Assembly: GCA_032139905.1 (NCBI GenBank)
Contig: JAQJDB010000007.1
Span: 620,001 to 684,000 of the forward strand
DNA length: 64,000 nt
Direction of reading: 5' to 3'
Source: Nitrospira sp. MA-1
GTDB taxonomy: Bacteria > Nitrospirota > Nitrospiria > Nitrospirales > UBA8639
A model generated the notes under the pieces. The model was not told the origin of the DNA, did no database searches, and was given only the letters and a program-made list of their open reading frames with translations. The translations under genes were made by a program, and so were the position numbers. Positions 16,925 to 37,223 of this stretch are shown piece after piece (position 1 is the stretch's first letter; each line of letters opens with the position of its first letter).

Positions 16925-17794
16925 TTACTTCGCCAGGCGTTTACGGATAGTCTGCAACTCCTTCTGACGCTCCTTGGTTGTTGTGGGATAACTCATGTTG
17001 AGACTTTTTAATGTTTCGACGATCACATTCGAAATAATGAGCCTGGCGTTCTTTTTATCATCGGCAGGCACAACATACCAGGGAGCAGTTTCTGTGCTTG
17101 TCGAACTTAAACATGCCTCATAGGCGTTCATATACTCTTTCCAATATTTTCTTTCTTTAATGTCGGCGAGGCTAAATTTCCAGTTCTTTTCCGGTTCGTC
17201 GATGCGTTGAAGGAATCGCTCTCGCTGCTCTTCCTCTGAAAGGTGAAGGAAAAACTTGATGATCCGTGTGCCATTGCGGTAGAGATGGCTCTCAAGGTCC
17301 ACGATAGAGCGGTACCGATCCTGCCAGAGAGATTTTTCATCAAGTAATTCGTCCGGCAGACCCTGGCTCAGCAGAATCTCTGGATGCACTCGCACGATGA
17401 GAACTTCCTCGTAATAGGAACGATTGAAAATGCCGATGCGGCCGCGTTCAGGCAGAGATTGTGTGGTGCGCCACAGAAAATCATGATCCAGTTCCGCTGC
17501 ACTGGGATGTTTGAAGCTGAACACCTGGCACCCTTGTGGATTCACTCCTGACATGACATGTCGGATGGCGCCGTCCTTGCCTGCGGCATCCATGGCCTGA
17601 AATATCAGCAGCAACGCATAACGGTTCGACGCATAGAGGAGACGTTGTAGGTCACTGAGTTCTTCGATATGTTTCTTGAGAACCTGCTTGTACTGTTTTT
17701 TCGAGTTATAGATATCCTTTACCCTGGTTGGCCTTTTGCTGAGATCGACCTTTGTGCCTTTATCTACTCGGAAACCGTTGGTCTGAATGTTCAT
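16925..17794 (-). CDS. ppk2: PPK2-family polyphosphate kinase
   Basis: The 289-residue product has the PPK2 P-loop ([11 protein letters not shown]), the following [21 protein letters not shown], the lid region [22 protein letters not shown] and [23 protein letters not shown]2 enzymes phosphorylate AMP or ADP/GDP using polyphosphate; the subclass is not certain, but the length fits single-domain class I/III enzymes. It begins 58 bases after atpG on the same strand, so it may be the last gene of the N-ATPase transcript, linking ion-driven ATP turnover with polyphosphate. Confidence 0.92.
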
Positions 17795-17852: not shown

Positions 17853-18740
17853 TTATTCTTTGGCCAGCGCTTCAAAGCCGGAGATGACGTCGAACAGTTC
17901 CTCGTCGATGCCGCTTTGGCGCAACTGGTGAAAGTGTTTATTGAGGTCCTCCAGCAGTTCGTCGATGTTTTTCTCAGCGCGTTGCATCGCTGTCAGACGG
18001 CTGGCGTTTTCGCTGGCAAGAGATTCGGCGCATGCCCGGAAGAGCGAAACGAAGAGGTACTCATGAATGAGCGCCTTTAGGGTCGTCGTAGTACTTCCGA
18101 TGACCTCCGGCAAATTCCCTGTCGGCCACGGGAGTATGGCCAACTCGCTTCGCCAGGTTTCGTTCAGCGGCAACAAACGCTGATTGATCGGCGCATAGAC
18201 CGCTCTGGATGTGGGACGATTGTAAAAGAGGTGGAGTTCCGAGATTTCTCCGCGGCTGCGGCGCGTTTCGCTTTCCAGGAGAATCTGTCCGACCAGCGGA
18301 GTGATGGCCTTGACGGAATTCGGGACGGAAAAGAATCCTAGCAACGGAAGTCCTGCGTCTGCCAGGCGCGTCTGCACGCGCTCACCGACGGCCCATACCC
18401 GGTGTTGGCCGGGCAGCGCGGCCAGTGTCTTGACCGCATAATCGGCGACTACCTCATTAAACTGGCCCACCAGTCCTTGGTCGGAACCGAACACGACCGC
18501 CCCAATCGTCCCAGTAGGGGGGTGTATTTTCTGTTCTCCCATTATCGCCATCGGCGAGTCATCCCGGAAACAAACGCTTAATCCCAGCTCCACGGTGCGA
18601 GCGTAGTCGGCCAAGGCGCTCACCGATTGCTCGTATTGTCCGATGCTCGAGGCGGCCAAGGCTTTCATTGTGCGCACGACGGATTGGAGATCCCCGGCTC
18701 CGCCGATCTTTCGGCGCAGACTCACCATGGTGTCGCTCAT
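17853..18740 (-). CDS. atpG: N-ATPase gamma subunit
   Basis: The 295-residue product begins [30 protein letters not shown], the coiled N-terminal helix of the F1 gamma subunit, and ends with the matching C-terminal helix (MQRAEKNIDELLEDLNKHFHQLRQSGIDEELFDVISGFEAL). It is the central rotor shaft. In N-ATPase operons atpG normally follows atpA directly. Here baeRF and HPF genes intervene, and the start of atpG overlaps the HPF stop by four bases. A broken copy of its first 30 codons remains directly after atpA. Confidence 0.92.
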   Translation of the reverse strand: MSDTMVSLRRKIGGAGDLQSVVRTMKALAASSIGQYEQSVSALADYARTVELGLSVCFRDDSPMAIMGEQKIHPPTGTIGAVVFGSDQGLVGQFNEVVADYAVKTLAALPGQHRVWAVGERVQTRLADAGLPLLGFFSVPNSVKAITPLVGQILLESETRRSRGEISELHLFYNRPTSRAVYAPINQRLLPLNETWRSELAILPWPTGNLPEVIGSTTTTLKALIHEYLFVSLFRACAESLASENASRLTAMQRAEKNIDELLEDLNKHFHQLRQSGIDEELFDVISGFEALAKE

Positions 18741-18761
18741 GAGTCTTCCGGGAGTTCCGCT
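18649..18761. repeat. 113-bp direct repeat, copy A (intact atpG head)
   Basis: This segment covers the last codons of the HPF gene (GAELPEDS) and the first 31 codons of atpG. It matches 20409-20521 at 98 of 113 bases, including 39 consecutive identical bases, with an offset of 1760 bp. The HPF C-terminal tail thus derives from an atpA-like 3' end. Confidence 0.9.
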
Positions 18762-19108
18762 CCAGGTGGGGGAGGGTCAGTCCTGCGCCTCTTTTCATCG
18801 TGCAGTTGCCCGAGGGTGCTGTCCATCATTCTTGTCAACTTGTCTGCAGCGCCGTCGACGGCTTGGTCCACGGTCGCAGCTTGATGCGTGACCACAACGG
18901 GCTGTCGGCCTTCAAGGCGGGCTTCCATCACACAACGTATGTCGTCATTGCCCCCCTTCTTGTCGCTATTCTCATCGCTCAGATGGACCTCTACTCGCGT
19001 GATGGAGTCGCTGAATCGGCTCAGTGCACTCTCCACGACGCCACTGACCTGAGCGGCCAATGCCTCGTGGCCTTCAATGTTCCGATCAGTATTGATTTGG
19101 ATCTGCAT
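18737..19108 (-). CDS. HPF/RaiA-like ribosome hibernation protein
   Basis: The 123-residue product (MQIQINTDRNIEGHEALAAQVSGVV, then ITRVEVHLSDENSDKKGG, CVMEARLEGRQPVVVTHQAATVDQAVDGAADKL) has the beta-alpha-beta-beta-beta-alpha fold of the HPF/YfiA family that blocks the decoding centre of idle 70S ribosomes. AAGGAGAACACC precedes the ATG. The last residues GAELPEDS match the C-terminus of AtpA (EAELPEES) and are probably a recombination scar rather than part of the family. Its position inside an ATP synthase operon is unusual. Confidence 0.85.
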   Translation of the reverse strand: MQIQINTDRNIEGHEALAAQVSGVVESALSRFSDSITRVEVHLSDENSDKKGGNDDIRCVMEARLEGRQPVVVTHQAATVDQAVDGAADKLTRMMDSTLGQLHDEKRRRTDPPPPGAELPEDS

Positions 19109-19136
19109 GGTGTTCTCCTTTGTGAGTGTGGATGGT

Positions 19137-20300
19137 TCAATGTCGGTAAGTGGCAGCCAGTCCCGTCCGTCCCGGCATACGCTCGGCCGGAATGACCAGG
19201 ACCCGGCCGCCCATCTTTTCGACCAGCTCACCCAGGTCATCGAGGAGGTCGTCGACTTGCGGATGACTCAGGTCAGCACGTTCAACCTGACCCGTCGCAT
19301 AGTCCAGCCGGCCGGCAATCTGGCGGTCGGCCTCAATCAGCAGCGTGGCGACCCTCCCGGTGGTGGCCGCCTGGGCGATCTCCCCCAGGTCGTCACAGCC
19401 AAGCCCCTTGGATTTTGCCACTGCAAACTCGTCGGCCAATGTAGCCAGTTGGGCCTGATATTGCGGGTCGACAACCTGCCAGGCGCGTTTCCGAAGGTCA
19501 TCGATCGGCAGGGCATCAGGATTGATTGTGAGTCCCTCCGCCATCAAAAACGGGTTGTGGCTGACCTGGTGAAAGCGATGATGATGCTCCGGCAACGCTG
19601 CCAGGATCAAAGGCAGGCCTGATGGCCGGGAATGGTGCTCTAACACCGCGCGGTCGACAGCGCGAAAAAACCGGTCCGCGTCGGTGTCTACCCCGTCCTT
19701 TTTTCCGCCGTGGCCGTGGTGCATAGCCCCGCTCGCCTGACCGACCCCACCATAAGAAGCGACGGTTGAATGGGGTTCGGTCAGCTCATCCCCCAGCGCC
19801 TCGGTGATCGTCCGTGGAACGTCCGGAGCCAGATCGATCTCGTCAAGCGTATGGCGGTTCCCCTCGAAGAGCCGGATCGTGTGAAGGCTCAGTCCGAGGA
19901 CCTGATAGCGATCAACCGATTGCAGAAAACGCCGCAAGGGCTTGGTGTGAAAGCTGTCGGCCACGACGACCAATTCGGTGACCGGGCGCTGAAGCCGGAA
20001 CACATGAAAGAAGCCTTGCGCGGCCAGCACGGCCAGTCCATCGTGTGTGTGGGTCCAGAAGTCATGATCGTTGGCCAGGGCTTCAAACGGTTCCAGAAGG
20101 AGGCGCGTTTCGACGGCCGGATACTTTTGCCGGAGCGATGTCTCCAGCTCCTTGACAAGATTACGAAACCGGATCGGGTCCTGCTGATTCTCGGGATGGC
20201 ACCGATGGGTCGGCTGATAAAGCGAGAGACATGGCGGCTGGCGATCAGACACCAACGCGGCTATGAATTCACTCGCGAGCATAGTGTTCTTCTGTGTCAT
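19137..20300 (-). CDS. baeRF-family (bacterial eRF1-like) protein
   Basis: The 387-residue product starts with LASEFIAALVSDRQPPCLSLYQPTHR and contains DPIRFRNLVKELE, DHDFWTHTHDGLAVLAAQGFF, VADSFHTKPLRRFLQS and GGRVLVIPAERMPGRTGLAA, all typical of the bacterial-archaeal eRF1-related (baeRF) family. The loop AMHHGHGGKKDGVD sits where eRF1 has its GGQ-bearing loop but lacks a clear GGQ. Family members are predicted to act in ribosome rescue or stress; none is well characterised. The ATG at 20300 follows GGGAG; five codons upstream remain open. It is followed by the HPF gene 28 bp downstream. Confidence 0.75.
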   Translation of the reverse strand: MTQKNTMLASEFIAALVSDRQPPCLSLYQPTHRCHPENQQDPIRFRNLVKELETSLRQKYPAVETRLLLEPFEALANDHDFWTHTHDGLAVLAAQGFFHVFRLQRPVTELVVVADSFHTKPLRRFLQSVDRYQVLGLSLHTIRLFEGNRHTLDEIDLAPDVPRTITEALGDELTEPHSTVASYGGVGQASGAMHHGHGGKKDGVDTDADRFFRAVDRAVLEHHSRPSGLPLILAALPEHHHRFHQVSHNPFLMAEGLTINPDALPIDDLRKRAWQVVDPQYQAQLATLADEFAVAKSKGLGCDDLGEIAQAATTGRVATLLIEADRQIAGRLDYATGQVERADLSHPQVDDLLDDLGELVEKMGGRVLVIPAERMPGRTGLAATYRH

Positions 20301-20408
20301 TCGTGTCTCCCTCATTTGTGTTCAATCACTGTGAAACTTCAATAATATCCTAACAAAATGGCTTAACCAGTGGCTTTTTCGCTCGTATGAAGTGACTTTT
20401 TGTCACTT

Positions 20409-20488
20409 GAGGCGGCCAGGGCATTTATGGTGCGGACGACGGATTGGAGATCCCCGGCTCCGCCGATCTTTCGGCGCAGGCTTACCAT
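20409..20488 (-). pseudogene. truncated atpG 5' remnant
   Basis: Directly after atpA the minus strand reads MVSLRRKIGGAGDLQSVVRTINALAAS before losing homology to atpG. It keeps the native position of atpG in an N-ATPase operon but lacks the rest of the gene. The base string at the expected upstream start is CTAAGC instead of ATGAGC, so only the internal ATG at 20488 remains. Confidence 0.85.
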
Positions 20489-20521
20489 AGTGTCGCTTAG
20501 GACTCCTCTGGAAGTTCCGCC
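20409..20521. repeat. 113-bp direct repeat, copy B (atpA tail and broken atpG head)
   Basis: This is the second copy of the repeat at 18649-18761. It covers the last codons of atpA and the first 30 codons of an atpG. Together the copies bracket the baeRF-HPF cassette. About 13% divergence means it is not a recent target-site duplication. Confidence 0.9.
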
Positions 20522-22140
20522 TCGGGCTTGGGTCTGGCCTCTGTTTGCGACCCCGGCTTTGACTCGGTCTTCGGCTTGGGCTCAGCTTTGACTTCGGGCT
20601 TACGATTAGGCTTGGGCTGATACCGTGCAAGTGCTTTGCGGGCGATGTCAATAATCGTTTGACGATCATCGTCATTGAGTTTGGCTGCGCCTTCCAATCG
20701 CGTGCATATTTCCAACGGAATGACCAGGGCTGCCTTGTGCAACGCCTGTTCCGCAGGCGTCATCTGGTTAAGCGGGACAGGGTCGAAGAGCTTTTCGGTT
20801 AACGCCAGGAGCAGGGTGATTTGAGCGGGCACGGAGACCGGGGCGAATTCCGGCTGTTTGAGACAGGCACGAATTCTCCGTCCGTGTTCGATAATGGCGC
20901 GAGTGTCGTCATCCAGTCTGGCGCCGAACCTGGCGAAGGTTTCCAGTTCTTCAAACTGGGCATAGGCCAGTTTGAGATTTCCCGCTACGGCCCGGTAGGC
21001 CGCCCGTTGTGCCTTGCCTCCAACCCGGGAAACGGATCGACCGACATCGATCGCAGGCAGCACCCCTAATTCGAACAGGGAAGGCGAAAGGTAGATCTGC
21101 CCATCCGTGATGGAAATCAGGTTAGTCGGAATGTAGGCCGAAATGTTCTGTGCTTCGGTTTCAATGATGGGAAGCGCGGTCAGGGACCCACCACCCAGGT
21201 CTTGGCGCAGATGTGTGGCGCGCTCCAGAAGTCTCGAGTGGATGTAAAAGATGTCGCCGGGAAAGGCTTCGCGACCGGGCGGGCGGCGCAAGAGCAGGGA
21301 CAGCTCACGATAGGCGCGAGCGTGATGCGTGAGATCGTCATAGACAATGAGCACATCGCGACCATGTTCCATGAAATGCTCCGCAATGCTGGTTGCGGCA
21401 TACGGCGCGATATACGCCAGCCCTGGTGGGTCGTTGCCTTCGGTGACGACGACGATGGTGTATTCCATCGCGCCTTGTTCGCGGAGGGTGGCCACGACTT
21501 TCGCCATGCCGGACGCGCGCTGGCCAATGGCGCAATACACGCACAGGACATTCTGGTCCCGCTGGTTGAGAATCGTGTCGACGGCAATGGCAGTTTTACC
21601 CGTCTGCCGATCGCCAAGAATCAACTCGCGCTGGCCGCGTCCGATGGGAATGAGTGCATCAATGACCTTGATGCCGGTTTGCAACGGCACCGTGACGGGT
21701 GCACGATTCATGATGGGCGGTGCTGGACGTTCGATAGGCAGGCGCTCGCTGGAGGCCACCGGTCCGCGGCCATCCAGGGTCCGACCTAATGGATTGATGA
21801 CTCTCCCGATCAAGCCGTCGCCTACCGGCACGTCCATAACGTGTCCCCTGCGCTCGACTTCGTCCCCTGCCTGTAACTGCCAGTAGTCGCCAAGGAGTAC
21901 GACGCCGATTTCGTCTTCATCGACGTTGAAGGCGATGCCGTACACTTCACCGGGAAACTTCAGCACCTCCTCAAACCCCACGCGGGGAAGGCCGGAAACC
22001 CTGGCGATCCCGGTGGAGACGTTCGTGATCCTGCCCACCTCGTGTGGCGTCAGCTGAGGCGAGAAGCTTTCGCGCGCCTGGCTTATTCCAGAAAACGCAC
22101 GGTCGAAAACCTTTTGGAGACTCTCAGGTTCCATGTTCAT
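20497..22140 (-). CDS. atpA: N-ATPase alpha subunit
   Basis: The 547-residue product has the F1 alpha fold: the beta barrel ([16 protein letters not shown]), the P-loop ([13 protein letters not shown]), and [35 protein letters not shown]. It carries an unusual low-complexity tail of about 40 residues rich in Pro, Lys and Glu. The start overlaps atpF by 17 bases (ATGAACATGGAACC); the second ATG two codons later is equally possible. It is the last gene before the repeat and cassette. Confidence 0.95.
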
Positions 22141-22942
22141 CGGCTGGTTGTTCGGGAGGTGCGTCGGCCTTGGCTTCAGGTTTGGTTTTCTCTTTTAGGA
22201 GTTCGCCGACCTCCTTTTCCAGCGACCCGAGATAATCCGCGATGCTCCACGCCACTTTTTGTCCATTTGTGGTGAGTTCGATCCCGCTGACCAGGTCCGG
22301 CGCGGTCTCGAACCGGACGTGGATTTCAGCCGAGAACGTTTCGTTGAGGGCATGTTGTATCGCCGCGCGTTGCTCCACAGGCAGGTCGAACGCGCTGCGC
22401 ACAATCGCGGGGTCAGACGAGGTTTTCAGAGCCTCGGCGAGTCCCTCTTTCGCCTGGCCGTCCATTTCTCGCAAACGGCGAATGAACACCTCGCCCAGGC
22501 GTTCTTCCAGGCTCGTCGTGGCGAGGTCTGCCAACGTCTTTCGCGCAATCGCAAAGATTTCCTCCCGTGTTCGACGAGTGAGTTCCTTATTCAGGCTTTG
22601 GTGCTCGCTTCTCAATGCTTCCTGCCACTTGGTGCGCAAGCCGTCCGACTCCTTCCGCGCGTCGTCGAGGAGGTGCTGACGTTCAGCCGTGGCCTCATCC
22701 TCCGCCTTGGTTAACAGAGCCGCGCGTTGCTGGTCGAACTCCTCGTTTTTACGCTGGAACTCGTCGCGTTCCTGTCCGGCTTCGGCCATTCTTGAATCGG
22801 CGTTGGCGAGTTCGGTGGCGATCCGTTTCTCCCTTGCGTCAAGAGCATTGAGAATGGGTTTGTACAGGAAACGCTTTAATAACCATACCAGGATAAGAAA
22901 GTTGAGTGCCTGCGCGACAACGGTAAACCAGTCGATTAACAT
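22124..22942 (-). CDS. atpF: N-ATPase b subunit with delta-like C-terminus
   Basis: The 272-residue product has an N-terminal membrane helix ([27 protein letters not shown]), a long charged coiled coil (about 35-150), and a C-terminal domain ([52 protein letters not shown]) resembling the F1 delta subunit. This fusion explains the lack of a separate atpH and is characteristic of N-ATPases. It ends with an acidic Pro/Glu-rich tail. It starts four bases after atpE. Confidence 0.92.
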
Positions 22943-22946
22943 CGTT

Positions 22947-23228
22947 TCATTTTCCTGTGGCCTGGGAGAGCACGTGGTTCCAGAACGGGTTGGCGAAGAT
23001 CAGAATCATCGAGACCACGAAACAGTAAATGGCCGTAGATTCGATCATCGCCAGGCCCACAAAGAGCGTCCGGGTAATCGTGTTTGCGGCATCGGGCTGC
23101 TGGGCCAGAGAAGACAAGGCGGTTGATACCGCCCTTCCTTCCCCCAGGGCCGGCCCAAGGCAGCCGAACCCGGTGGTGAGGCCAGCCGTGACAATTGATG
23201 CCACCGCGATAAGAGTCATGCTGTCCAT
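22947..23228 (-). CDS. atpE: N-ATPase c subunit (Na+-type signature)
   Basis: The 93-residue product (MDSMTLIAVASIVTAG) has two membrane helices. The first holds GPALGEGRAV with Glu30 and the second GLAMIESTAIYCFVVS with Glu63-Ser64-Thr65. This pair of carboxylates plus Ser/Thr fits the Na+-coordinating set described for N-ATPase c rings. The ATG at 23228 follows AAAGGAGATACT. The ring carries the ions that drive rotation or are pumped by ATP hydrolysis. Confidence 0.93.
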   Translation of the reverse strand: MDSMTLIAVASIVTAGLTTGFGCLGPALGEGRAVSTALSSLAQQPDAANTITRTLFVGLAMIESTAIYCFVVSMILIFANPFWNHVLSQATGK

Positions 23229-23262
23229 AGTATCTCCTTTGGTTGTTGTGGCGTGTGTGTCA

Positions 23263-23961
23263 CTATTTCCCTCCAGATTCGGGTTGGGGGTCCCGCTGAC
23301 GTGTTCGTGTTGCGGCCGCAATGTAGACCGTGGCCAGGATACTGAAGATATAGGCCTGGACCATTCCGGTGAGCAGACCGAGCAGGCTCATGACGATCGG
23401 GAAGATGAAGGGCGTGATGGTCAGTAGCATGGCGACGATCATGGCTCCGCTCATCATGTTGCCGAACAGGCGGACCGCCAGGGCCAGCGTGCGGGAGAAT
23501 TCGCTGATCAGGTTAAACGGCAGCATGATGACGGTCGGTTTCAGGTAGGACTTGAGATACCCGCCGACTCCTTGCTCCTCAATCCCGAAAAGCGGGACGG
23601 CAACAAAGACACACAGCGCAAGCGCCACTGTGGTCGAAAGGGATCCTGTCGGCGGCTCGTAACCGGGAATAATCGTACAGAGGCTGGCAAGGGCAATGAA
23701 CAGAAAGATTGTTCCCAGAAAGCTGAGATACTTCCGTGGCTGGCTCAGGCCCACCTCTTCAATTTGTTTCTCGATGGCCGTGACGACGATTTCCAGAAGA
23801 TTCTGCCAGCGAGAACGTTGCAGACCGGTGGACAGGTGCCGCGTAATGACTGTTGATCCAATAGCTAACAGGAGCATCAATCCCCAAGTGAACGCAATTG
23901 TGGCATTCAGCTTGATGAACCCGTATTGCCAGAAAATGATGTCGTCCGGGCTAAGGCGCAT
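23263..23961 (-). CDS. atpB: N-ATPase a subunit
   Basis: The 232-residue product has five to six membrane helices and the essential arginine in EFSRTLALAVRLFGNMMSG. It forms the ion half-channels facing the c ring. It overlaps atpR by 11 bases, indicating translational coupling. Confidence 0.93.
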   Translation of the reverse strand: MRLSPDDIIFWQYGFIKLNATIAFTWGLMLLLAIGSTVITRHLSTGLQRSRWQNLLEIVVTAIEKQIEEVGLSQPRKYLSFLGTIFLFIALASLCTIIPGYEPPTGSLSTTVALALCVFVAVPLFGIEEQGVGGYLKSYLKPTVIMLPFNLISEFSRTLALAVRLFGNMMSGAMIVAMLLTITPFIFPIVMSLLGLLTGMVQAYIFSILATVYIAAATRTRQRDPQPESGGK

Positions 23962-24262
23962 GGCTGGGCTCCTGTGCCGGGCTGTTTGGGTTTTCGGCTA
24001 AGCCGGTGACTCGCATCACGATCGGACGGGCAATGGTAAATCCAACGAGGCACACCAGCAGCCTCTCCCATTGGCCGTCCGAAACCATATAGAAACCGAC
24101 CAAGGTCATGCTCGTTCGTAGCAGCAGGCTGCCGAGGAACCAAAAGGCCGGTTGTGTGGAGGACAGGCCTTTCCGAATCGTCCACCATAGGCCACCAAAA
24201 AACATCGCTCCGAGCAACATTCCCGTTACCAGCGCAGGCACCATCATAAAGATGTCATCCAT
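23951..24262 (-). CDS. atpR: N-ATPase subunit AtpR
   Basis: The 103-residue product has three hydrophobic segments (MVPALVTGMLLGAMFFGGLWWTI, AFWFLGSLLLRTSMTLVGFYMV, LLVCLVGFTIARPIVMRV). AtpR is a small membrane protein specific to N-ATPase operons and thought to assist assembly of the c ring together with AtpQ. The arginine inside helix 2 and the one in helix 3 are typical. It overlaps atpQ by eight bases. Confidence 0.88.
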   Translation of the reverse strand: MDDIFMMVPALVTGMLLGAMFFGGLWWTIRKGLSSTQPAFWFLGSLLLRTSMTLVGFYMVSDGQWERLLVCLVGFTIARPIVMRVTGLAENPNSPAQEPSHAP

Positions 24263-24593
24263 CGTGATTCTCCTGTTCGGCTCGTATTTCCTGGTCTTCC
24301 CTGGTCACCCAATGCCAGGCATTCACACAGCCGATGATCAAGCCGATGAAGAGCAAGGTGAGCGTCCAGGAATGGGGTCCGGAATAATGTTTGTCCAGCC
24401 AGAGACCGAGCGACGCACCAAGTAGCGTTGGAATCGCCACCGACCAACCGACCAGACCCATCATTCCCAACCCAAACCAGATGGTCCGCGTCGTGTGACG
24501 TTGCGCCTTGAGTTTGCGCGCAGCCTTCATGCCGACCTGTCGGGCTAAGGTCGTCTCTCCCCTGAGAGGCTTCTCTTCCGGATCCTCAGTCAT
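24255..24593 (-). CDS. atpQ: N-ATPase subunit AtpQ (AtpZ/AtpI-like)
   Basis: The 112-residue product (MTEDPEEKPLRGETTLARQVGMKAARKLKAQRH) has a charged N-terminus and two membrane helices (FGLGMMGLVGWSVAIPTLLGASLGLWLD, WTLTLLFIGLIIGCVNAWHWV), as in the AtpQ/AtpZ family. It probably works with AtpR. The ATG at 24593 overlaps the end of atpC by eight bases. Confidence 0.88.
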   Translation of the reverse strand: MTEDPEEKPLRGETTLARQVGMKAARKLKAQRHTTRTIWFGLGMMGLVGWSVAIPTLLGASLGLWLDKHYSGPHSWTLTLLFIGLIIGCVNAWHWVTREDQEIRAEQENHDG

Positions 24594-24975
24594 GGTGAAA
24601 ATCCGCGAAGCGGCGCACAAAGCTACTTTCAAGCTTGGCCATCACCGAGCGGAGGCTCTGTTCCTGTTCGTCCAGAGTCAGAAATTCACGTTCCACGGCC
24701 TCGCGCAATTGGGGGAGGTCAGTCCCGGCAATGGCGTTGCGCACGGAGACCAGAACGTTGGGGCCGCTTTTGACCAGCACCCCTTCATCGAGTGCCACGT
24801 ACATCTCTTCTTCCCCTTTTTTTTCGTAGATCAGAATTCCCGGCTCGAGTGCCGCGACGCAGTCAAGCCGTTGGGGCAGAAGTCCAAACGCGCCCTGGCG
24901 AGTCTCCGCGACGATACGCGTGACCGCGTTCTGCTCGGCAAAGATTCTGAACGGCAGAAGAATTTTCAGGGTCAT
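24586..24975 (-). CDS. atpC: N-ATPase epsilon subunit
   Basis: The product of about 129 residues (MTLKILLPFRIFAEQNAVTRIVAETRQGAFGLLPQRLDCVAAL) has the F1 epsilon beta-sandwich followed by a short C-terminal helix pair (LDEQEQSLRSVMAKLESSFVRRFADF). The ATG at 24975 has AAAGG six bases upstream; an ATG six bases earlier lies too close to it. Upstream in-frame sequence overlaps atpD and is not coding. Confidence 0.9.
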   Translation of the reverse strand: MTLKILLPFRIFAEQNAVTRIVAETRQGAFGLLPQRLDCVAALEPGILIYEKKGEEEMYVALDEGVLVKSGPNVLVSVRNAIAGTDLPQLREAVEREFLTLDEQEQSLRSVMAKLESSFVRRFADFHHD

Positions 24976-25015
24976 GAGCATCCTTTGTACGTTCGACCTC
25001 CGGTTGCGACTTTGA

Positions 25016-26542
<1,527 letters not shown>

Positions 26543-26674
26543 TCATGACGCGTGGCAGTTTAAAGTCCAACCCACCATAATCTGCCGTCCTGAAAATTTT
26601 GGGATACGGGTTCCGGCAATGCCAACAATCTGTGAGGAAAGAAACGGCGACCATACATCCTCATCAGAGAACTC

Positions 26675-26690
26675 AGCAAAGACAGTGCCA
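26675..26690 (-). promoter_or_regulatory. sigma-54 promoter of the N-ATPase operon
   Basis: The minus strand reads TGGCACTGTCTTTGCT, matching 11 of 12 informative bases of TGGCACR-N4-TTGCW with correct spacing. The untranslated leader to atpD would be about 170 bases. Confidence 0.7.
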
Positions 26691-26788
26691 GACCATGTAT
26701 CTCCCGTGAGAGGCAGATTGGAGTGAGACCTGGACCAGATAATGTGTTGGCCCGTGATCAATTGTCCTCGGGGAAAAAGAGGAAAAAG

Positions 26789-26801
26789 GCTACAGTGTGG
26801 T
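26789..26801. promoter_or_regulatory. putative activator site shared by N-ATPase and uspA promoters
   Basis: GCTACAGTGTGGT fits GCTACA-N-TGTAGC at 10 of 12 bases. It starts 98 bp upstream of the atpD sigma-54 element and ends 117 bp upstream of the uspA element. The 14-mer GAAAAAGGCTACAG also occurs at 11278. Confidence 0.5.
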
Positions 26802-26918
26802 GAGGGGTAATAGTCCCAAAAAAGGGCATGTGGGGATGGAGTGAACGGGCTCTATGATTTCTTTTCATGAAAATTCATAATTCTGGACACAAAAATTTTT
26901 GTTGGAAAATATTCAACT

Positions 26919-26933
26919 TGGCAGGATTCCTGC
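26919..26933 (+). promoter_or_regulatory. candidate sigma-54 promoter of uspA
   Basis: TGGCAGGATTCCTGC keeps the invariant GG and GC at exact spacing and matches about 9 of 12 informative bases. It lies 76 bases before the ATG. Confidence 0.5.
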
Positions 26934-27009
26934 GAGTGAAGTGTATGTCGTCATGAACAATGGAATTGTGTGATGTGTTCTGTGTAAATGGGATTGAGGA
27001 GATGTACCA

Positions 27010-35626: not shown

Positions 35627-36544
35627 ATGTCGGTTGTCATTCGGCGATTCGAATCCGGGACCTTGCAAGCAACGGTGCAAGCCAGAACCGCTCATGCCAT
35701 TTATCGAGGGGCGATTCATACGATTCCCACATGCTTCGAGTTGGTGGAACAAGGCGGGGTGAATTTTCTTATTCGAATTGTCTCCAACCTGGCCAGGAAG
35801 GTTCAGTCCAACGCTGAGCAACGGCCACCCTCCAGGGCTGTCAACATAAAGCAGGACCCCTTTCTGCCTTACGAACAAGACCTGTTTGTGGCGGATATTT
35901 CCGATACCCATGTGTGTTTGTTAAATAAATTTAACGTCCTGGATCATCACATACTCATGGTGACCCGTTCTTTTCAGGAACAGGACTCCTTCCTCACGCT
36001 GAGTGATATCGAGGCCGTGTTGTTGTGTCTGGCCGAATTCGAAGGATTGGCCTTCTATAACGCGGGGGAAGCTGCCGGGGCTAGTCAACGGCATAAGCAT
36101 GTGCAAATGATCCCTCTTCCTTTGACGGCTGAAGTGTCTCATCTTCCCATTGAACCCCTATTAAATGCAGCCAGGTTTGAGGAGCAGATTGGGCGGATTC
36201 CCGGTCTTCCTTTTTCCCATGTGCTGGTCCGGATGAATCCCGAATGGATCGCTTGTCCGGTAGAAGGGGCACAAGAGTTGCTGGAGCAATATCTGTATAT
36301 GTTGCGGACTGTCGGATTGTCGGGTGGTGACGTAGGAGGGGAAACCACGAGTCCTGGTCCGTATAATTTTCTTGTCACACGACAGTGGATGTTATTGGTT
36401 CCACGGTCCAGGGAGTGCTTTGAAGGGATTTCCGTGAATGCCTTGGGATTTGCCGGAGGCTTGTTGGTGAGGGATCAGTCGCAGCTTGATCGGTTGAAAG
36501 CGTGTGGGCCAATGAGTGTACTTCGTCGAGTGGCCATGTGTTAA
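35627..36544 (+). CDS. ATP adenylyltransferase (Ap4A phosphorylase-like)
   Basis: The 305-residue product belongs to the HIT-superfamily Apa1/2-type enzymes. It contains NKFNVLDHHILMVTRSF and the catalytic GASQRHKHVQMIPLP (H-x-H-x-Q), with GGETTSPGPYNFLVTRQWMLLVPRS in the C-terminal domain. These enzymes phosphorolyse diadenosine tetraphosphate to ATP and ADP, controlling a stress alarmone. It is followed 112 bp downstream by the HPF-cold-shock gene. Confidence 0.87.
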   Translation: MSVVIRRFESGTLQATVQARTAHAIYRGAIHTIPTCFELVEQGGVNFLIRIVSNLARKVQSNAEQRPPSRAVNIKQDPFLPYEQDLFVADISDTHVCLLNKFNVLDHHILMVTRSFQEQDSFLTLSDIEAVLLCLAEFEGLAFYNAGEAAGASQRHKHVQMIPLPLTAEVSHLPIEPLLNAARFEEQIGRIPGLPFSHVLVRMNPEWIACPVEGAQELLEQYLYMLRTVGLSGGDVGGETTSPGPYNFLVTRQWMLLVPRSRECFEGISVNALGFAGGLLVRDQSQLDRLKACGPMSVLRRVAMC

Positions 36545-36656: not shown

Positions 36657-37223
36657 ATGGATCTTCAGATTGACAGTCGAAATGTGACGATGACCCCACG
36701 ATGGAAAACGGAGATTGAAACTCGGATGGCCGATCTGCAGGTAGGCCATGAGGATTTGATCCACGGGCGGGTGACGCTTACAAAAAATGCCCATCACAAA
36801 AAATCCGAAAATGTGGCGGAAGCCCTGGTGGTCGTCACGATGCCCGGTCGTCATACCCTGACAGCCAGAAAAGAGGAAAAAACGTTCGAAGAGGCTATCC
36901 GTGCGGCGTTCTTTGCCGTGGAAATTGAAGTGAAGAAGTTTCGGGACAAACGGGCCTCCAAAGAAATTCGGGTCCCCCCTATTCCGTTACGTGGAGTGAT
37001 TACGAAGTTATTTCCTCAGGAAGGGTACGGTTTTCTTCTCCAGGACGGCGGAGGTGAGGTTTATTTTCACAAGAATGCGGTACACGGGATGAGATTTGAG
37101 GAACTTGAGGACGGGGTGGAGGTCTTGTTTAATGTGGAGGACGGGGAGAAGGGTCCCCAGGCCACCACGGTCAATCCGCTTCCCATTCTACCGGGTGCCG
37201 TCGAAAAAGCTGCGTTTTCCTGA
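36657..37223 (+). CDS. HPF-domain/cold-shock-domain fusion protein
   Basis: The 188-residue product has an N-terminal HPF/RaiA-like domain (residues 1-105: MDLQIDSRNVTMTPRWKTEIETRMADL, TLTARKEEKTFEEAIRAAFFAVE) and a C-terminal cold-shock domain (about 115-170: GVITKLFPQEGYGFLLQDG with EVYFHKNAV). It would bind idle ribosomes and RNA. The window therefore has two hibernation-type genes, this one and that in the N-ATPase operon. Confidence 0.88.
   Translation: MDLQIDSRNVTMTPRWKTEIETRMADLQVGHEDLIHGRVTLTKNAHHKKSENVAEALVVVTMPGRHTLTARKEEKTFEEAIRAAFFAVEIEVKKFRDKRASKEIRVPPIPLRGVITKLFPQEGYGFLLQDGGGEVYFHKNAVHGMRFEELEDGVEVLFNVEDGEKGPQATTVNPLPILPGAVEKAAFS

Follow-up and report, generated by a model that had tools for sequence, protein, structure and literature searches.

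Why should genes whose products silence ribosomes lie inside the operon of an ion-pumping ATPase, and does their placement there tie the two functions together? The question is raised by a 64,000-nt stretch of Nitrospira sp. MA-1 DNA (hereafter the window; its genome, G000, measures 4.76 Mb), in which an earlier note had placed a baeRF gene and an HPF gene between atpA and atpG of an N-type ATPase (N-ATPase), with the HPF stop codon lying over the atpG start. All of this was confirmed: a baeRF–HPF cassette sits in a complete N-ATPase operon on the minus strand (order atpDCQRBEFA-G), where the gap between atpA and atpG is 1756 nt. The features that concern us are, in the direction of transcription:

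22124..26494, minus strand: the remaining N-ATPase genes atpD, atpC, atpQ, atpR, atpB, atpE and atpF (ORFs, Pfam, NCBIfam)
20497..22140, minus strand: atpA, N-ATPase alpha subunit (TIGR03324 alt_F1F0_F1_al, 937 bits, cut-off 750; Pfam)
20406..20500, minus strand: scar, a partial, decaying duplicate of the first ~32 atpG codons (matches the intact start at 84 of 95 nt)
19137..20300, minus strand: baeRF family 3, Balon homologue, 387 aa (Pfam PF18845, 3e-53; Balon chain 8rd8_B, E 7.7e-45)
18737..19108, minus strand: short HPF/RaiA-type protein, 123 aa, whose last ~18 aa form a tail rich in proline and glutamate (PF02482; 7m4z_v, E 4e-28)
18737..18740, minus strand: ATGA in which the HPF stop overlaps the start of atpG (sequence; overlap conserved in 14 of 14)
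17853..18740, minus strand: atpG, N-ATPase gamma subunit, the central rotor stalk (TIGR03323 alt_F1F0_F1_gam, 426 bits, cut-off 282; ATP-synt gamma, 2.4e-54)
16925..17794, minus strand: PPK2, ADP-polyphosphate phosphotransferase (NF042973, 521.7 bits, cut-off 450; PF03976)

The operon carries an AtpR gene (Pfam match 7.8e-29), has the gene order D-C-Q-R-B-E-F-A-G and lacks a delta gene, features that define N-ATPases in the sections of PMC4154653 on which we relied, and NCBIfam labels its alpha, gamma and c subunits 'alternate F1F0 ATPase', i.e. N-ATPase. Both inserted genes are preceded by SD sequences (GGGAGA before the baeRF ATG, AAAGGAG for HPF), and PPK2 starts 58 nt downstream of atpG. 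Neither this PPK2 nor the scar had been picked up in the earlier note. The atpA C-terminal tail (window 20500-20580) is long, K/P/E-rich and different among species, being extended in the window genome and in G043, and at the far end a 515-nt intergenic region (window 26495-27009) separates the operon from a divergently oriented gene for a universal stress protein.

What the two inserted genes encode bears directly on the question. A profile of 21 baeRF relatives, compared with all PDB chains, matched 8rd8_B over its full length (profile 9-384 against residues 2-369, E 7.7e-45), the next matches being the mycobacterial Balons MSMEG_1130 (1e-5) and Rv2629 (0.54). The depositors' molecule name for this chain is 'Methyl-accepting chemotaxis protein'; we take 8rd8 to be the Psychrobacter Balon–RaiA ribosome, an identity that fits the match of the HPF profile to chain D of the same entry (2e-5). 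The window baeRF keeps an HP motif (HPEN at residue 35, THRCHPEN aligned with Balon THREHPAN), which on our reading of the alignment would be the pair meant in the Balon paper, and GGQ and NIKS are both absent from its sequence. Its sole NCBIfam match, to the 'AOC03_06830 family ribosome hibernation factor' (NF052287), scores 181.9 bits, below the equivalog cut-off of 330; the protein is a homologue of Balon that falls short of the NCBIfam equivalog class. Its predicted structure was too poor to use (pLDDT 40). Because Balon homology is full length, the HP pair is kept and GGQ and NIKS are missing, the cassette points to hibernation rather than rescue, and a Balon-type hibernation factor is the best interpretation of baeRF. 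This corrects the earlier note, in which baeRF proteins were predicted rescue or stress factors. A second, distant baeRF (~32% identity), split over two frames, occurs elsewhere in the genome (L073:5822-6969; G000:C7:385821-386944).

The HPF matches Ribosomal_S30AE at 7.2e-9 (36.7 bits, Pfam cut-off 23.7), scores below the NCBIfam yfiA equivalog cut-off (25.5 versus 40.9 bits), and as a profile finds 7m4z_v ('Ribosomal subunit interface protein', 4e-28); judged by its sequence, it is a divergent short member of the S30AE family. The available text of Helena-Bueno et al. (2024, PMC10901736) describes Balon and RaiA as able to occupy one ribosome together, and Balon genes as frequent in stress operons, some of them alongside RaiA.

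We then ask whether this placement is peculiar to one genus. An alignment of the genus's N-type atpB was scanned against one genome per species (84,980 species), HPF playing no part in the choice, and the best 80 of 375 relatives formed the survey set. Three of the genomes surveyed also stand under a second locus label (L031/L078, L030/L080 and L033/L081), and such duplicate rows were dropped before counting. The atpA–atpG junction was readable, with both the atpA end and the atpG start present, in 65 of these best 80 of 375 loci, and an HPF occupies the slot in 12 of the 65 (L078, of the same genus, and L084, L086, L088, L094, L100, L101, L113, L117, L145, L151 and L153), or 11 of 62 when the window's genus (L078, L080, L081) is excluded. 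A full baeRF accompanies it in three loci (L078, L088, L101) and a baeRF remnant in L094, while remnants alone lie at the junction in L103 and L146. The taxa include Contendobacter, Competibacteraceae, Thiobacillus, Gallionellaceae, Burkholderiales, Formivibrio, Deltaproteobacteria, Pirellulales and Lacunisphaera. HPF or baeRF–HPF also flanks the operon outside the slot (L085, L119, L139, L092, L181), and in L180 baeRF–HPF stands upstream of a broken atpG. The survey of other N-ATPase operons that the earlier note had called for was thus positive, and the idea of a one-genus oddity is rejected by the recurrence of slot HPFs in other lineages.

The same survey argues against a strict requirement, as the slot lacks HPF in 53 of the 65 readable junctions (best 80 of 375), and close relatives have either lost it or never had it. 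AtpR exceeded the cut-off in 11 of 369 genomes of the gammaproteobacterial class, one of them the already known genome of L086; none of the other 10 operons, found via AtpR alone, carries a slot HPF. Among plasmids, none of the six records with an HPF match was among the 25 listed of the 67 with an atpG match. Counted over 15 loci (11 with a slot HPF, one with a remnant), genomes hold one to five S30AE matches.

The overlap with atpG proved to be real and general. In all 14 operons examined with an HPF in the slot (the 12 surveyed loci, the window and L027) the HPF stop overlaps the atpG start, by 4 nt in 11 and by 1 nt in three, a recurrence that places it beyond chance. In our preferred reading the HPF frame runs into this overlap, so that ribosomes would arrive at gamma from the end of HPF and no longer from that of atpA. 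The overlap is open to a plainer account, which we regard as possible but on balance doubt: the pair may simply borrow the promoter of a stress-induced operon, its overlap being without effect on gamma, a view compatible with part of the preferred reading. HPF-free operons have the same atpA/atpG overlap (44 operons, at -4 or -1 spacing, used in the tail comparison below), so that the HPF/atpG overlap could simply be inherited; yet an insert would have needed the atpG ribosome-binding site alone, and the overlap was kept every time.

The earlier note had argued that this arrangement forces co-expression with the rotor subunit, unless a separate promoter or a terminator isolates the cassette. 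Between positions 17500 and 21000 a scan for sigma-70-like promoters, other types lying outside it, found none (1.1 in shuffles), and none of the four terminator-like sites (3.7 in shuffles) is on the transcribed strand, all being on the opposite one. The hibernation-type genes share one directon with the N-ATPase, and we infer that cassette and pump are co-transcribed, translationally coupled and co-expressed. The 196 nt upstream of baeRF, which include an AT-rich stretch of 105 nt (38% GC), could house a non-consensus promoter.

How the cassette came to be there is recorded in part within the genus. AtpR occurs in 11 of 48 genomes of the family, and once atpG matches are added, nine genomes of the genus have readable junctions, those of G033, G036, G039, G044 and G045 being cut by contig ends. 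Three carry the cassette (G000, G035, G043) and six do not (G029, G037, G038, G046 with two copies, G047 and the divergent G040). The cassette-free relatives have a clean atpA–atpG junction; all three carriers have a scar in the same place between atpA and baeRF, in which atpG runs for its first 31-33 codons before giving way to foreign sequence. Its presence in every carrier, with an ATG over the atpA stop in two of them, might speak for a small functional gene whose product, an N-terminal piece of gamma, would act as a pump inhibitor. We consider this very improbable and reject it, since in the window the start codon of the copy is gone and nonsynonymous to synonymous changes between scars (7:4, 8:9, 8:5) show no bias towards synonymous sites, unlike those of the intact atpG start (1:4, 2:4, 1:8); by this measure the scar substitutions are those of a functionless sequence in decay.

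The three carriers do not form one clade in the genus, a topology rejected by the AU test for atpA (p 7e-72) and atpG (p 5e-4); the other seven subunits do not unite them either, G035 grouping with the empty G038 (92/93). Loss or exchange must therefore be invoked, and either one insertion with several precise losses or exchange between species would do. We suggest that the pair came once into the window's genus from another N-ATPase operon and was later lost by some species. A donor fragment ending in baeRF-HPF-atpG could have recombined through homology at the atpG start, its other end joining without homology inside the resident atpG and so leaving the scar; such a scheme is known as homology-facilitated illegitimate recombination. 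The two atpG starts, being direct repeats, would offer a ready path to precise loss. Two further rearrangements were seen among relatives: in G030 the N-ATPase operon is reduced to an atpD start fused to the atpG end (L072:1242-1779), and in G035 the end of atpG is repeated downstream of the gene as a 21-aa copy (L027:14276-14338), a second small duplication at the locus.

The HPF tail preserves a further trace of residence in this slot. HPFs outside N-ATPase loci mostly end at about 104-106 aa, without a tail, whereas those at N-ATPase loci have about 15-20 extra residues reaching into the atpG overlap. The DNA of this tail upstream of atpG looks like the 3' end of atpA in operons that have no HPF: at positions -30 to -15 the score is 4.4 bits for the tails, 6.8 for genuine atpA ends and -1.1 for tails with shuffled codons, a signal that descent and shared selection for the atpG ribosome-binding site would give alike, from rows that are non-independent. 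L027, L139 and L181 were left out of one tail comparison. The tail is still present on HPFs that now lie outside the slot (L180, L181, L198), which would fit an earlier residence before atpG. We also considered that the window tail had been built from the atpA end by the duplication that formed the scar, and reject this: slot HPFs of other phyla have similar tails, so the tail predates insertion in the window's genus. Gene conversion may account for the strong resemblance between the atpA and HPF ends, which is seen in the window alone.

The module is not confined to N-ATPases. About 20 Nitrospirota genomes from a different family hold a solitary HPF of the same subfamily, and in the class of L086 such HPFs, some beside a baeRF and some not, lie away from N-ATPases; there baeRF adjoins five of the ten best gammaproteobacterial HPF matches after the N-ATPase one; 12 free-HPF neighbourhoods of 9.6-18 kb contained no N-ATPase genes. 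An HPF tree built without 15 duplicate rows, from sequences trimmed to 112 residues, unites the N-ATPase HPFs in one 22-row cluster (80/92) of 14 slot, five flanking and three members away from any N-ATPase. On an atpG tree of 81 rows, from which L031, L072, L080 and L081 were left out, slot HPF requires at least 11 changes; starred inner branches are a minority in both trees. Such a distribution implies transfer of the pair between N-ATPase operons, many separate losses, or a combination of the two. Neighbourhoods of baeRF-1 and HPF have been published, with joint action on the ribosome proposed, in the material available from Burroughs and Aravind (2019, PMC6514570).

Could the pair then be a mere passenger, carried by travelling operons in a slot that tolerates inserts, expressed from a weak promoter of its own and unconnected with the pump? 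The patchy spread on the atpG tree, the free modules, the absence of the cassette from most of the genus and the AT-rich stretch upstream of baeRF are all consistent with this. We nevertheless hold it to be rather unlikely, as the overlap is kept in all 14 operons, HPF or baeRF–HPF also occurs beside N-ATPase operons outside the slot, and the scan found no consensus promoter. We favour instead an older free-standing HPF–baeRF pair that would have entered N-ATPase operons at the atpA/atpG slot and become tied to the pump there.

The gene that follows atpG suggests what such a tie might serve. The window PPK2 exceeds its NF042973 cut-off and so would make ATP from polyphosphate. In 10 of 47 readable loci (best 80 of 375) a PPK2 gene follows atpG in the same orientation at no more than 3 kb; in four more (L087, L109, L119, L143) it lies immediately upstream of atpD, the order in L119 being baeRF-HPF-PPK2-atpD...G. 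Around the window operon lie two universal stress proteins, two CBS proteins, a phosphofructokinase, an Ap4A phosphorylase and an HPF–cold-shock fusion. USP or CBS genes are found near one of 12 N-ATPase loci with HPF and three of 68 others, and PPK2 alone of the window's stress genes recurs near other N-ATPases (both best 80 of 375), with such same-strand neighbours in many lineages. The fusion, a second HPF domain in the window joined to a cold-shock domain (36657-37223), adjoins the Ap4A phosphorylase gene (35627-36544).

Taken together, we put at roughly 60% the reading that the operon houses an energy-starvation module of PPK2, ion pump and parked ribosomes, assembled by entry of HPF–baeRF and coupled through the overlap. 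The physiology that we infer runs as follows: PPK2 would convert polyphosphate to ATP, the N-ATPase would use that ATP to sustain an ion gradient once respiration has failed, and the Balon-type baeRF with HPF would occupy the ribosome so that translation stops. The earlier note had named Na+ as the ion; in the parts of Schulz (2017, PMC5376962) available to us, the c-ring of an N-ATPase in another species mainly binds H+, so Na+ should not be assumed here, and what we say of the ion and function of the window pump is conditional. The same arrangement in unrelated bacteria suggests that some cells turn the pump on and protein synthesis off together at energy exhaustion. A bolder form strikes us as unlikely: gamma, needed once per pump, would be reached solely by HPF-finishing ribosomes, the pump would be completed only in cells making HPF, a mobile hibernation module would have repeatedly taken this control point in distant phyla, and the N-ATPase would be the polyphosphate-fuelled ion pump of dormant cells. 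N-type ATPases are described in the sections of PMC5376962 at hand as largely unexplored in their cellular functions, and the recurrent, overlap-coupled link to hibernation and to polyphosphate-driven ATP points to one role, that of holding the membrane gradient while translation is parked. It would also be a hibernation module seen moving between ion-pump operons.

Among known systems, the mycobacterial DosR-type dormancy regulon brings together a baeRF/Balon protein, an HPF, universal stress proteins, a CBS protein and a phosphofructokinase; relatives of all these are present in the window, and to our knowledge the regulon includes no N-ATPase. A literature search joining N-ATPase with ribosome hibernation returned no paper, and an earlier mention may stand in the 2010 work of Dibrova, in which the N-ATPase operon is reportedly given as atpDCQRBEFAG. 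The baeRF–HPF pairing is known; its embedding in N-ATPase operons we have not found in print. The published baeRF-1/HPF neighbourhoods join the same two families as the window, where the pair lies inside an ATPase operon with HPF over atpG; the material seen of PMC6514570 does not mention N-ATPase. With Balon, as far as PMC10901736 could be drawn on, the window baeRF shares full-length homology, the absence of GGQ and NIKS and, on our alignment, the HP motif; it differs in scoring under the equivalog cut-off and in its ion-pump operon, a context outside those listed for Balon there. Such neighbours of N-ATPase operons go unmentioned in the sections available of PMC5376962, PMC4154653 and PMC7784846. 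With the N-ATPase operons described in such sections of Koumandou and Kossida (2014, PMC4154653) and Schulz (2017, PMC5376962), the window shares the subunits and their order, AtpR and the absence of a delta gene, to which it adds baeRF and HPF in the atpA–atpG slot and PPK2 after atpG.
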